In this document: positions 57,157 to 64,000 of the stretch, piece after piece | Layout: every line of letters starts with the position of its first letter | Numbering within the stretch: the first letter of the stretch is position 1 | Assembly (NCBI GenBank): GCA_021399435.1 | Contig: JAJTUP010000005.1 | Coordinates: forward strand, 558,001 to 622,000 | Reading direction: 5' to 3' | Source of the DNA: Diaporthe sp. PMI_573 | Taxonomy: Eukaryota > Ascomycota > Sordariomycetes > Diaporthales > Diaporthaceae | Length of the DNA: 64,000 nucleotides | The notes under the pieces: generated by a model | The model's input: only the letters and a program-made list of their open reading frames with translations | What the model was told of the DNA's origin: nothing | Databases searched by the model: none | Position numbers and translations under genes: made by a program

Positions 57157-57994
57157 TTAATGCTTTTCTTGGTGACCTGGTTTGAAGTGGCCATGGTCTA
57201 GCCCAACGGCCAGAAATCCGCTCGCGTTGAAAACCCTTCTTTGCTCCACGAATTGTTTGAGCGCTTCGAAATCGGCACATTGACGCTTCAGCCCGCTCCC
57301 AAGAAATTGATGCACCTTATCATTGGCTGGCTCGATTGTGGTATCTGCCATGCATCTCAGGCCCTGCTGCAGGTAGTCGAAGCAATGGGCGATATGTGGC
57401 GAGCGATCCTGGCCAAAATCGAACTCCTCAAGCCCATCGCCGCTGGAGTAATATGCGCGGCGCAGAGTGTACAGACAGTGCAGCTGATGGAAAATTGTTG
57501 GTATCGACGTTTCAGGTGCGAGATCGGGGTCTTTGAAGTAGCCAAGGCCGTCTACGGCATGTACCCTCGGTAAGTATGCGTCGGGGCCCAGGGTGAGGGG
57601 GAAGGGGATGGTATGGTTCATGCCACGTACTCGGAATCAAAGAGTCCCATATTGGCTCCGCCTGTCGTCCTGACTCTGAGCCAACCGGTGGTTCTTTGGA
57701 GAACTCGGAGTCGTACGTGAAGACAGTTTCGAGGCTTGGCAGAGGAATCCGGCCTGCTAGTGTTGATGTCCCATGGTTACTCAAGGTCCAAATTGTTCCG
57801 TATGTGGATGAGAAACGTCCAGCGGTAAATCCACAGAAGACTGCTGCTACCAAACTCAACACGAAAAGCGCTCTACTCAAGTGGTGTCGTTGTGAGCGTT
57901 CGGACTTGAGAAAGGATGTGCTCGAGGCTGCTCTGAGCTCGCTCTCGGTGATAGCCTCATCGGAGTTTGCTGTAACCAACTGATAATTATGCAT
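57157..57994 (-). CDS. UstYa-family (DUF3328) oxidase, copy 1
   Basis: Exons 57994-57631 and 57551-57157 close in phase to 252 aa, the usual family length; the intron donor is GTACGT. A hydrophilic N-terminus precedes one membrane segment at about residues 42-60 (ALFVLSLVAAVFCGFTAG). Then come the family core motifs IWDSLIPNGLGYFKDP, FHQLHCLYTLRRAYY (HxxHC, residues 143-147) and HIAHCFDYLQQGLRCMADTT (HxxHC, 174-178). The two HxxHC motifs are the proposed metal-binding and catalytic residues. UstYa-type proteins carry out oxidative cyclisation or other oxidations in fungal RiPP pathways (ustiloxin, phomopsin, asperipin, victorin) and some other metabolite pathways. It is transcribed away from the precursor gene 1.2 kb to its right. 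Confidence 0.93.
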
Positions 57995-58447
57995 GTTGAT
58001 GTGAAGAGAATAAGGTCTTTAATTCGGGTGTGTTTGAATGAGTTGGGTCCGATGGTAGGCAACAGGCGTCAGAAAACCCATATTTAGTACCAAGACCCAT
58101 GGGCTTGTCCAGAGGAACATATAGTGAGTTCTGGGCAATCCCCAGCGTCAACCAATACGACCAGGCACTGAAATAGATAAGCAACTAATATGATGCATGA
58201 GAATCAACACAGTGTGAAGATATATTTATATACTTTGTTGTTGGTACTCAGCCATTGTGCACACGGGTTCACTGAACTCCGTCGTTTTGCCATCCTTGAA
58301 GAACTTTCTGGGCCGGCAATACCTAAGCACCCTGTCCACATGACTGCAGAAATCACACCGGCTGCAGCTTAATCTTTCCAGTCCGAGGTCAGCTACATCA
58401 GAATAAATTTTCGAGGCTGGATGCCAGTGGTCTAGAACCCTTCTGGT

Positions 58448-59041
58448 TCAGACAAGGCAAACCTGCATCTGCAACAACCATGCGTCAGCAAAGGAGTGTT
58501 GTGGTTCAATGATGAAAGCGAGACGCGATGACAAACTAGACATGGGCCACACAACGAGTGCGAGGACTAGGAAATAGGGCGAAATTGCAAGACCTGCAGC
58601 GAAAATTCTGCAAATCTCTACAGCTTTCGAAAGGACTAGCCACAGGGTATCACCGCATATTCCGCCCGAGACATTGCCCTCGTAACTGTGCCCTGGAACC
58701 GGGGACAGCCAAGTAGATGGCATGCATCCCCGTCTTAGCCTAGCCTTGCACTGAGGGTAAGCAATGGCAGCAACGACTTTGTAAGTGATCTGCACCGCCC
58801 CCAAGAGAGTAACGTTCCTATGCATATTGAACTCAACTCTTTCTTCCGAAGTCCGAGGTCTCACATACACTCTGTTTCGAGAGTCGAGTTGATCCCTTGG
58901 CGAACTGCGCCTCCTCCATGTCATGTGGGTACCTGACTGGACATCTTCCGTTGCCAGAGTGTGCCTACCTGAAAGTGTAACTAGTTGGTGTTGGAAAACT
59001 TCCCATTCAGGAATGGGAAGAAGCACGCCAAAATCACTCAT
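58448..59041 (-). CDS. Hypothetical protein, low confidence
   Basis: A 197-codon uninterrupted frame from an ATG, with two hydrophobic stretches near its C-terminus (ICRIFAAGLAISPYFLVLAL and neighbours). No family recognised. The composition (many Arg, Ser, Trp, Cys) is also compatible with a chance frame. It is listed because it is the only long frame between the UstYa gene and the precursor gene. Confidence 0.25.
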   Translation of the reverse strand: MSDFGVLLPIPEWEVFQHQLVTLSGRHTLATEDVQSGTHMTWRRRSSPRDQLDSRNRVYVRPRTSEERVEFNMHRNVTLLGAVQITYKVVAAIAYPQCKARLRRGCMPSTWLSPVPGHSYEGNVSGGICGDTLWLVLSKAVEICRIFAAGLAISPYFLVLALVVWPMSSLSSRLAFIIEPQHSFADAWLLQMQVCLV

Positions 59042-59104
59042 GAAGGGGTGCAGTCAAAGCCGGCGTAGCCTCACAAAGGTAAGCTGAGTCCTGGATGCCC
59101 AGTG

Positions 59105-59113
59105 CATAAATAG
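59105..59113 (+). promoter_or_regulatory. TATA-like box of the RiPP precursor gene
   Basis: CATAAATAG, about 120 bases before the start at 59228, followed by a C/T- and A-rich leader. Consistent with a fungal core promoter. Confidence 0.4.
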
Positions 59114-59227
59114 ACTGTTCCAATATCTACAGCCCGATGTCACTGCTGCTATTGCTTAGCATAGGATCATCAACTTCCAATCTCCCCAGAACAAGTCACA
59201 ACTTCCACACGCCCCAACCTGCCCAAA

Positions 59228-59562
59228 ATGCATTACTCCAAGGTCTACTTTATGCTTAGCATGGCTACGTCCGCCGTCTATGGCCTTGTCCCTCGTAATC
59301 AACAGCCCTTAGTCCACTGGCATGAATATTTCACTGACGCCATCTAGAAGTCCCGCGAAACCTGATAATTACTGACGCTTCCCATGAAGTGCTGCGTCGC
59401 GAAAAGGTTGACGTTGCAGTCGGCGATGGATTCAAGCGCGATGAGGTGGGAGTAGCATCCGTTGCTGATGGATTCAAGCGCGATGAGGTGAAAGTTGCCG
59501 TGGGTGACGGGTTCAAGCGCGATGAGGTGGGAGTTGCGGTCGTGGATGGGTTCAAGGCTTGA
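59228..59562 (+). CDS. Putative RiPP precursor peptide with four Kex2-type repeats
   Basis: Two exons (59228-59294, 59348-59562) close in phase to 93 aa. The intron (GTAATC...CACTGAC...CTAG, 53 nt) has good fungal signals. Exon 1 encodes a signal peptide (residues 1 to about 19; hydrophobic core VYFMLSMATSAVYG). A short leader follows, then four repeats from residue 41: each is an acidic/Val-rich stretch closing with Asp-Gly-Phe, three followed by Lys-Arg (52-53, 66-67, 79-80) and the last by Lys-Ala and the stop. Signal peptide, leader and KR-separated repeats are the architecture of UstA/VicA-type precursors, which are cut by Kex2 in the Golgi. UstYa-type genes on both sides support the call. 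There is no Tyr in the repeats; Phe is the only aromatic. Not matched to any precursor I know. Confidence 0.82.
59401..59559 (+). repeat. Four in-frame 39-42-bp core-peptide repeats of the precursor
   Basis: Units of 13, 14, 13 and 13 codons. The block GGATTCAAGCGCGATGAGGT recurs nearly unchanged (GGGTTC in one copy), encoding DGFKRDEV. The variable positions lie in the middle (VAVG, VASVA, VAVG, VAVV). The pattern, conserved flanks with drifting centres, is typical of fungal RiPP core repeats. Confidence 0.88.
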
Positions 59563-59855
59563 ACTACACTCATAGTTGACGCAACTGGCTGACTGACGTA
59601 GGGAGTGAGTGTTGCATCCAAACCCTGCACAATGTATTCATCCAACTCGTTGCAAACTAAGTGATCAGTTCTCCTGGGATAAGCGTATGGCTTACTGCCA
59701 CTCTGCCATCATGTACAAATTGTGATTCAGAGCTGCCAACTGATATGATCACAAGGAGTGGGACATCAGTCTAGCAACAGCTCTCTGTCACTCGTGGCGA
59801 TCGCAATGATACGTAGAGCATGGATTCCCCCTCTCCGATTTGATATATTCACTGC

Positions 59856-60695
59856 CTAACTATCTACCCGTCCATACGACTCCTCCGGCAGCCCCGTTGA
59901 CAACTCATCTGTAGGAACATATTTGTCCGAGATAACATAGCCGCTTCCTGGAGGACAGTGCTTGAACCTGTCCAATATAGGCTGGCCGTCTCTTTCCGGG
60001 TCCTCGGGGCGTTTATAGCAAGCCGTGTGTTGCAAGGCGAAAGTCTCAAGCTCCAGCCAGCTGCGACATTTCCGGTGTTGTCCGACCCCGGTGACAACTT
60101 CAATCCGCCGCTCAGTAGCCCTTGGTGTGTCGTCAGCATCACACAGGATCTGCCTGCGTAGTGCGTCCATACAATGGCTGATATGATGCCAGGACCGAGA
60201 CTGTGATAAACCGCGCCTGAACTCGCTGAGGGAGAGATATATAATCTTCAGACAGTGCAAGTTGTGAAAGCCGTGCAGAAGATAAATTCCTTTCGTCTGG
60301 TCCCATGGGAACCTTTGAGCTGTACGGAGGTTGTGCTCCGCCGCCCACTCGTCGGAAAGCGCGACGACACCAACGTCAATGTTAATGTCGTGCCACAATT
60401 GGTCTTGGAGGGTCAGGTTGTCGGAGGCGAAATCAGTCAGGAGGACATATGGCTGTTCGTCGTGGCTTTCGAGCTCGGCGAATATGGAGGGAGGTTCTGA
60501 GCTCGATGACGATTTTAGAGCAGAGATGAGTAGAATGGCATTAAGAGTCATAGAAACGAGTACACAGGATCCGATCACCAGTTGACGCCATCTTTTTCGT
60601 TTACTTGGTTGGCGAGAAAACTGTACGCCAGCTTGTGATACTTCATCGTCAGCGAGCAGCCTTTCGCAGTCTTCTTGCTTCTCTTGTGAGGCCAT
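59856..60695 (-). CDS. UstYa-family (DUF3328) oxidase, copy 2 (divergent, intronless)
   Basis: A single 279-aa frame from ATG 60695. The cytosolic N-terminus has a basic stop-transfer cluster (SKRKRWR). A membrane segment at about 39-59 (LVIGSCVLVSMTLNAILLISA) follows. The HxxHC core is HGFHNLHCLKIIYLSLSEF (HxxHC 144-148) and SWHHISHCMDALRRQILCD (HxxHC 171-175), then ADDTPR. Both HxxHC pairs are intact. It differs strongly from copy 1 and is longer at the C-terminus (extra ~50 residues with CPPGSGYVISD). Ustiloxin-type pathways usually carry two distinct UstY proteins (UstYa and UstYb), so two divergent copies flanking the precursor fits. Its promoter faces that of the PTH11-like gene. Confidence 0.93.
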   Translation of the reverse strand: MASQEKQEDCERLLADDEVSQAGVQFSRQPSKRKRWRQLVIGSCVLVSMTLNAILLISALKSSSSSEPPSIFAELESHDEQPYVLLTDFASDNLTLQDQLWHDINIDVGVVALSDEWAAEHNLRTAQRFPWDQTKGIYLLHGFHNLHCLKIIYLSLSEFRRGLSQSRSWHHISHCMDALRRQILCDADDTPRATERRIEVVTGVGQHRKCRSWLELETFALQHTACYKRPEDPERDGQPILDRFKHCPPGSGYVISDKYVPTDELSTGLPEESYGRVDS

Positions 60696-62897: not shown

Positions 62898-64000
62898 TCA
62901 CGAGTACAAATCTCCAATCATCTCGGCGCCACTTTCGTCGACCGCGTAGACCGTGCTCAGAATATTTCCCCTGGGCATAATAGGGAAAATGCTGGCATCA
63001 CAAATCCGCAGATTGGTCGTTCCGTATACTCGGAGCTCTCCATCCACGACGCCTCCGAGCTCAGCCCTAGCCATCGCACAAGTTCCACATGGATGATAGT
63101 TCGTCGCCCCATATTTCTTAATTGCTTCTTTTGCTTCTTCCGGTATCCTTAGGGCGTAGCTGAAGTCTGCCGGCAGGCGGTTGCCGCCCGGCTTGAGTAT
63201 GGGCGTGTACGTGGCCTGCTCAAGGAGTTGCTCAAGCTGAACAGCGTGACGAGCAAGTATCTCGGCATCCAATGGATGAGAGAGATAATTGCAGTCGATT
63301 ATTGGGGCTTCATGTGGGTTTGCAACACGAATGTGCGAGGATCCACGGCTGAACGGATGTGACAACATGGCCACGACTGTCATGTAGTTGCCCGGGGCCG
63401 CGCTGCCCGGCACGGTGTACCTCTGCATGCGTGTCATAAACACGGTAGCACTCGCTTCTTCTTGGTCCAAGATCATTCTTTTGACAAATTCGTGATGTAA
63501 TTGAGACTTTGAATTACCTGCTTCGCGATACTCGTCCAAGAGACGCTGCAAGTCTGCTTCCTCGGCCGTCGTGCCGAATAGCTGGAGCGGCCAGTAAGCA
63601 AAGCTGTACGCGGCTCCTTCCGAAAGAGGACCTGTTCGAAATTCCTCATACTCCTTTCTTCGTCTTTCCGTTGCTGCTGGGTCCCTGGCGGCCGTGTCCC
63701 CTGTCTCGATGTCAGGGTTGACTTCAACGCTTGGCCCGTAGTTGAGGTGATCCTGGAGATTCTCTAAATAAGTTCGTCAGATACAATTCGCACAGCCTTG
63801 CTTGAGATTCTTACCGCCTACCCCTGGAAGATCTGCCAAGCATTGGACACCCGCATTCTCGAGAATGCTTCTACTTCCAATGCCAGAGAGCTCCAGTATC
63901 TGTGGACTTCCAAAGACTCCAGCGCACAGGATAACCTGCTTGTTTGCCCTGGCAGACAACGTGATTCCTCCCTTCTCATACGTGACTCCAATGGCCTGTA
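62898..64000 (-). CDS. GMC oxidoreductase, C-terminal part (5' end outside window)
   Basis: Two minus-strand exons are visible: 64000-63815 (continues beyond the edge) and 63763-62898. The intron is GTAAGA...TTTAG and the join is in phase at GVG^ENLQDHLNYG. GMC signature 2 is present (GSPQILELSGIG). The C-terminal substrate domain has YHPCGTCAM with the catalytic His, then LRICDASIFPIMPRGN with the partner Asn. This is the choline dehydrogenase/alcohol oxidase-like fold with non-covalent or covalent FAD; fungal members oxidise alcohols, sugars, aryl alcohols or pathway intermediates. Several fungal metabolite clusters contain one. The stop lies 266 bases from the PTH11-like gene's stop (convergent). 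Confidence 0.92.

Follow-up and report, generated by a model that had tools for sequence, protein, structure and literature searches.

A tyrosine-free repeat precursor between two UstYa-type genes in Diaporthe sp. PMI_573: a candidate compact locus for a modified fungal peptide

Repeat precursors encoded beside DUF3328 (UstYa-type) genes are a known, large class in fungi. From 1,461 strains the catalogue of Umemura 2020 (PMC7329392) assembles 7,878 repeat proteins, 1,758 (22%) having DUF3328 neighbours and 2,560 lacking a homologue; since 1,758 are already counted there, one more such locus of this known class is to be expected. Within the genus, antiSMASH-type counts give one 'Fungal-RiPP' (ribosomally synthesized and post-translationally modified peptide) cluster each for D. 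amygdali and D. eres (PMC9409727). Ustiloxin-like clusters are reported in some Hypoxylaceae (PMC8403587). Here we examine a window of 64,000 nucleotides (contig C163, positions 558001-622000) from the genome of Diaporthe sp. PMI_573 (83.7 Mb, 217 contigs), in which a gene encoding a precursor with four repeats lies between two UstYa-type genes, UstYa1 and UstYa2. The most likely product of this three-gene set is a short modified peptide, new in itself but of a kind known from fungi, and unusual in that the repeats contain no tyrosine. No published description of the locus was found by title or abstract start, in a literature that mostly excludes subscription journals.

Three described systems come closest. 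In the victorin pathway of Cochliobolus victoriae a multi-core precursor is probably cut by Kex2, and the core is closed between its C-terminal Phe, not a Tyr, and an internal Leu (PMC9233826); victorin differs in being chlorinated and extensively modified, and the likeness is drawn from the published description, not from gene sequences. The asperipin-2a pathway of Aspergillus flavus is described as a small, four-gene cluster with a repeat precursor and the UstYa-type oxidase AprY, which is needed for the product, and without a tyrosinase (PMC6514808). There, however, Tyr residues of the core form ether links, and a single UstYa gene is accompanied by a transporter and a reductase. The dikaritins proper, phomopsin and ustiloxin, share with the Diaporthe locus a signal-peptide-like leader, repeats ahead of Lys-Arg (KR) and clustered UstYa genes (PMC6514808, PMC7329392), whereas their peptides contain Tyr-Ile links and need a tyrosinase, and phomopsin-like clusters have S41 peptidases, neither enzyme being encoded near this locus. 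Because victorin and asperipin-2a are partial precedents, a locus free of both Tyr and tyrosinase is plausible.

From left to right the locus comprises UstYa1 (minus strand, two exons), the repeat precursor (plus strand, two exons) and UstYa2 (minus strand, one exon). The precursor gene lies about 0.3 kb from UstYa2 and about 1.2 kb from UstYa1, which is the arrangement of a repeat precursor gene next to UstYa genes that is expected of ust-RiPS-type loci. The original prediction for this DNA, made from the sequence by itself, had placed a repeat gene between two DUF3328 genes with two HxxHC motifs each; the coordinates of all three genes were correct on re-check, and the arrangement was borne out by translation, the PF11807 profile and alignments. 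The features, in window positions, are as follows.

57157-57551, minus strand: UstYa1 exon 2 with the UstYa domain (PF11807, 75.5 bits, E 6.9e-21); HQLHC at 57475-57489, HIAHC at 57382-57396
57552-57630, minus strand: UstYa1 intron, 79 nt, GTACGT...GTAG; splice backed by homologue alignment
57631-57994, minus strand: UstYa1 exon 1, with an N-terminal hydrophobic segment at about residues 38-62 followed by the WDSLIP stretch (translation, hydropathy, homologues)
59228-59294, plus strand: precursor exon 1, start and likely signal peptide (by eye)
59295-59347, plus strand: precursor intron, 53 nt, GTAATC...CACTGAC...CTAG; identical splice in the NCBI protein
59348-59562, plus strand: precursor exon 2, short spacer, four repeats and stop; no Pfam family
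59401-59439, plus strand: repeat 1, EKVDVAVGDGF-KR, preceded by RR (repeat alignment, as for repeats 2 to 4)
59440-59481, plus strand: repeat 2, DEVGVASVADGF-KR
59482-59520, plus strand: repeat 3, DEVKVAVGDGF-KR
59521-59559, plus strand: repeat 4, DEVGVAVVDGF-KA, then stop
59856-60695, minus strand: UstYa2, single exon, 279 residues (PF11807, 69.4 bits, E 5.4e-19); HNLHC at 60252-60266, HISHC at 60171-60185

The precursor gene begins with an ATG at 59228 and, once its 53-nt GT..AG intron is removed, encodes 93 residues, the stop ending at 59562. The spliced product is the NCBI hypothetical protein F5883DRAFT_638510 of Diaporthe sp. PMI_573 (100% identity, 100% coverage). Because the deposited protein is identical over its full length, the 53-nt intron put forward in the original prediction agrees with the published gene model, which is a model and not transcript evidence. 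The N-terminus, MHYSKVYFMLSMATSAVYG-LV, has a short basic start, a hydrophobic stretch and a small residue before the likely cut; this signal-peptide call was made by eye, and the peak 19-residue hydropathy is modest (1.27). Tandem Repeats Finder gave 4.0 copies of a 39 bp unit at 59398-59556, corresponding to units of 13-14 residues, including Lys-Arg, with the pattern ..V-A-V-x-D-G-F. The repeats are composed of V, D, G, K, A, E, F and R plus a single S; Tyr, Trp, His and Cys are missing from all four. They occur as one copy in the whole genome. One RR and three KR provide the dibasic sites, repeat 4 closing with K-A-stop.

With repeats of at least 8 residues between dibasic Kex2 sites, the protein has the repeat layout of a Kex2-processed repeat protein (KEP), and the locus fits such a protein with DUF3328 neighbours (signal peptide by eye), not the dikaritins in the strict sense: a core Tyr linked to Ile, a tyrosinase in the cluster and an S41 peptidase in the cluster are all absent. 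Genome-wide, tyrosinase gave 57 exon matches, the nearest on the locus contig being at C163:1078822, about 460 kb away, and S41 peptidase gave two matches in the whole genome, none on the locus contig. It had been suggested that the usual partners could lie beyond position 64000, but the 48 kb to the right contain neither tyrosinase nor S41 peptidase, the two partner families searched for. The Umemura 2020 catalogue (PMC7329392) is alike in its repeats of at least 8 residues, KR breaks and a DUF3328 gene within 15 genes, the signal peptide here again being judged by eye. The comparison was with the catalogue's description, not its sequences, and the precursor differs in that the protein search gave no repeat homologous to its own.

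A detector requiring at least three similar stretches ahead of KR or RR was applied to 112 kb round the locus (the window plus 48 kb rightward) and to 20 further 10-kb stretches of this genome, each surrounding another UstYa gene and most of them among the top UstYa scores. In the 112 kb the precursor open reading frame (ORF) was the single match, and when the full 312 kb of scanned sequence was resampled 20 times under a first-order Markov model, there was no match at all. Clear repeat precursors were found in four of the 20 UstYa-centred stretches, namely L025 (C113), L026 (C142), L034 (C112, phomopsin-type) and L035 (C215). Two further detector matches, an ORF in L020 and a second, shifted-frame ORF in L035, were judged spurious by eye.

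Both flanking proteins belong to the UstYa family. Against a PF11807 (DUF3328) cut-off of 25 bits, UstYa1 exon 2 scored 75.5 and UstYa2 69.4, and UstYa1 exon 1 by itself matched no Pfam family. Each protein has one N-terminal hydrophobic segment and two HxxHC motifs (HQLHC and HIAHC in UstYa1, HNLHC and HISHC in UstYa2), and neither the His nor the Cys of either motif varies when 26 UstYa2-type or 22 UstYa1-type sequences, rows chosen from among the matches, are aligned. The two ORFs of UstYa1 are in different frames, and a frameshift was considered; this idea was dropped because the 79-nt intron restores both the frame and the family consensus, the splice joining ..WDSLIP to NGLGYF.. where homologues read ..LIPNGLGYF. 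An AlphaFold model of UstYa2, of modest confidence, places the HxxHC motifs near the starts of the neighbouring helices 142-160 and 169-185. With a mean predicted local distance difference test (pLDDT) score of 53.5 and a predicted template modelling (pTM) score of 0.34 it was too weak for a fold search, and the UstYa2 profile matched no PDB chain at E <= 1.

The closest UstYa2 paralogue in the same genome, at C113:280149-280814 (193 bits; query residues 27-253 aligned at 47% identity), has another UstYa gene next to it and, about 2 kb away, a precursor whose six repeats contain Tyr. Support for a RiPP locus is gained from this neighbourhood, for UstYa2 alone and not for UstYa1. A second UstYa2 paralogue, on C206, reached 126 bits summed. 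This gene (C206:198019-198582, in stretch L036) looks decayed: a stop interrupts one of the two parts that match, and, by eye, a conserved Cys is replaced.

Protein searches with both UstYa proteins, which the original prediction had proposed, returned homologues for each, with 132 proteins for UstYa2 at E <= 1e-3 (itself included) and 55 homologue rows for UstYa1; the hosts are Xylaria-type fungi, Aspergillus, Penicillium, Stachybotrys and lichens. Among the UstYa2 matches listed, the best non-self protein reaches 77% identity, and about 53-73% is seen for many proteins of Xylaria-type fungi, Aspergillus and Penicillium. Identities in the alignments are 39-63% for UstYa2-type sequences (one row 78%) and 40-53% for UstYa1-type sequences (one row 87%). 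A 5,677-base metagenome contig (P0122) encodes a protein, perhaps of a close relative within Diaporthe, that shares 95% identity with UstYa1 over 52% of its length. Scans for homologous loci with alignment A1 (bacterial genomes, viral contigs) and alignment A2 (viral contigs) gave 19, 12 and 20 pattern stretches, none of which was confirmed as a relative.

The two UstYa genes seem to travel together. At least 24 of the 55 UstYa1-homologue rows are on a contig equal in length to that of a UstYa2-homologue row, taken from the best 120 of the 132 UstYa2 rows. Equal length was used as a proxy for the same contig, no length being repeated within either list; most contigs are long, so that equal length alone is no proof of adjacency, and one shared contig has just 5,325 bases. 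Gene numbers are available for 21 of the 24 pairs and are exactly two apart in five, from Penicillium robsamsonii, P. concentricum, Rostrohypoxylon terebratum, Aspergillus venezuelensis and A. filifer, which suggests one gene in between. The Anthostomella pinea pair has a gap of 20, with tags ending in 0, which likewise fits a single intervening gene.

As read from its sequence, the three-gene set is probably a compact ust-RiPS-type RiPP locus, with a tyrosine-free core that would be oxidised or cross-linked at Phe, as in victorin. The RiPP reading of the original prediction thus stands as the best explanation, backed by the UstYa homologue pairs and the UstYa2 paralogue, but its wording that such pathways consist of "exactly these parts" was too strong, there being no Tyr in the repeats and no tyrosinase or S41 peptidase nearby. 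When the repeats are compared in all six pairs, which are not independent, and with one codon of repeat 2 dropped for alignment, the codon differences total 24 synonymous and 19 non-synonymous, and this synonymous lean counts for a RiPP precursor.

We envisage that the repeat protein would enter the secretory pathway, where Kex2 would cleave after RR or KR and a carboxypeptidase would remove the basic residues, leaving about four Phe-ended peptides of 11-12 residues, the last perhaps with a K-A tail. The calculated [M+H]+ values of the linear forms are 1106.536 (DEVGVAVVDGF), 1135.563 (DEVKVAVGDGF and EKVDVAVGDGF) and 1165.537 (DEVGVASVADGF), and those of trimmed forms 706.377, 664.330 and 765.378. 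Each peptide may then be oxidised by the two membrane-anchored UstYa proteins. UstYa oxidases use copper. The likeliest site would be the Phe next to the cut, linked to a Val beta-carbon or hydroxylated. The core is expected directly ahead of KR, the position it has in this genome's phomopsin-type repeats, and would therefore end in D-G-F, while the acidic D/E-E/K-V stretch could serve as a recognition spacer that is trimmed later. The predicted product is a small, modified, secreted peptide, probably cyclic.

Several points weigh against a RiPP locus. Tyr, Trp and His are absent from the repeats. A search of 5.8 billion proteins with the precursor, likewise suggested in the original prediction, found among 62 candidates at E <= 10 no relative beyond the identical deposited protein, although diverged relatives could escape because the search needs shared 5-residue words. 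Even when as few as two repeats were accepted, the 8 kb around the C206 paralogue of UstYa2 yielded no repeat precursor. The best single paralogue match of UstYa1, C215:187541-187819 (48.3 bits), is about 6 kb from a repeat precursor, but a match on C173 is close behind (47 bits), and a two-exon gene on C94 outscores C215 when its exons are summed (66.8 bits in one search, 97 in another); in the C94 stretch (L019) the detector found no repeat precursor. A highly reducing polyketide synthase (PKS) lies 16-23 kb right of UstYa2. The gene numbers of the remaining 15 of 21 UstYa pairs are further apart, by 5 in Hypoxylon crocopeplum, by 68 and 69 in two and by far more in twelve; these gaps decide nothing, neither helping nor refuting, because Joint Genome Institute (JGI)-style gene numbers need not follow position. 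Finally, DUF3328 proteins also act in polyketide and nonribosomal peptide synthetase (NRPS) pathways (PMC12048977).

The precursor could instead be an ordinary Kex2-processed repeat protein that yields linear, unmodified peptides, as a signal or effector, with the UstYa proteins acting on a different target. We consider this unlikely, although a DUF3328 neighbour is missing for about 78% of the Kex2 repeat proteins in the catalogue (PMC7329392) and the residues that are usually oxidised are missing from the repeats. UstYa genes flank the precursor on both sides at less than 1.3 kb, and the nearest UstYa2 paralogue sits in another repeat-precursor locus. Moreover, the pheromone-type repeat proteins in the catalogue account are without DUF3328 neighbours, with three exceptions (PMC7329392). 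The precursor itself had no Pfam match at E <= 0.1, fungal alpha-pheromone families included, though Pfam may have no model for some fungal pheromones.

It is less probable still that the UstYa genes tailor the product of a neighbouring polyketide cluster (GMC oxidoreductase, short-chain dehydrogenase/reductase (SDR), highly reducing PKS, P450, acyltransferase), with the repeat gene as a bystander. Polyketide clusters can contain DUF3328 proteins (PMC12048977), and the genes concerned begin 2 kb and extend to 44 kb right of UstYa2, but the PKS, even at its near end, is 16 kb away from UstYa2. The recurrence of the UstYa pair on equal-length contigs, together with the tags two apart, indicates a self-contained module and so argues against this explanation. 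That the repeat ORF has no function, as a chance tandem repeat or a decaying precursor, is very improbable: it has no homologue in the protein search, no Pfam family and just four imperfect repeats, but its splice form is intact with the repeats in frame at 13-14 codons, its codon differences lean synonymous, the Markov resamples gave no match, and both UstYa genes are open throughout without a stop.

Two features of the proposed RiPP locus are less ordinary: Phe alone stands in for Tyr in its core, and the UstYa pair appears to be widespread. More tentatively, UstYa1, repeat gene and UstYa2 might form a conserved fungal module, ranging from Diaporthe to Xylaria-type fungi, Aspergillus, Penicillium, Stachybotrys and lichen fungi, in which the oxidases stay about 40-60% identical and the precursor has diverged beyond recognition; here, with a tyrosine-free core, the oxidase pair might form Phe- or Val-centred cross-links without a tyrosinase. 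This wider proposal is doubtful, but if a conserved pair does hold a fast-changing precursor across fungal classes, it would offer a ready natural substrate set for the study of enzyme recognition. Characterised peptides of the ustiloxin, phomopsin and asperipin types use Tyr; a minimal, Phe-only locus of three genes would show the action of a UstYa pair without tyrosinase, and whether such a pair oxidises non-phenolic side chains.

Further genes lie to the right of UstYa2, with positions counted from the window start:

61.3-62.6 kb: fungal-rhodopsin-type membrane protein
62901-64812: GMC oxidoreductase
76.7-83.4 kb: highly reducing PKS with ketosynthase (KS), acyltransferase (AT), dehydratase (DH), enoylreductase (ER)-type, ketoreductase and acyl carrier protein (ACP) parts

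The same side also holds an SDR, a Zn-cluster regulator fragment, an FSH1-type hydrolase, a second GMC oxidoreductase, a rhamnosidase, a P450 and an acyltransferase. The region C163:634.7-662.2 kb (L010-L013), with the highly reducing PKS, FSH1-type hydrolase, GMC oxidoreductase, P450 and acyltransferase, looks like a polyketide cluster. At 70-72 kb from the window start, beyond its right end, remnants of transposons were suspected but are not claimed, the four pieces having no Pfam match. To the left, the genes tested include carboxylesterases, a fungal transcription factor, ERG4/ERG24, Pex16 and HET.

The other precursors found in the survey are of differing types. The phomopsin-type precursor at L034:1210-1746 (C112:915210-915746) has 12 core-pattern matches, with an S41 match 3 kb away (C112:918993) and tyrosinase matches about 20 kb away (C112:892689 and 895120). 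At L025:7820-8158 (C113:282820-283158) lies a precursor with six copies of the SAEEPGPGYGL-KR type, near two UstYa genes and, by eye, with an acetyltransferase-like gene in between. A precursor of the RYEGDTEDEIK-KR type at L026:5564-5920 (C142:60564-60920) lies where UstYa genes are numerous, with C142:79386 matching tyrosinase, and one of the NAWPAVEPEENN-KR type at L035:431-781 (C215:181431-181781) is near several UstYa matches.

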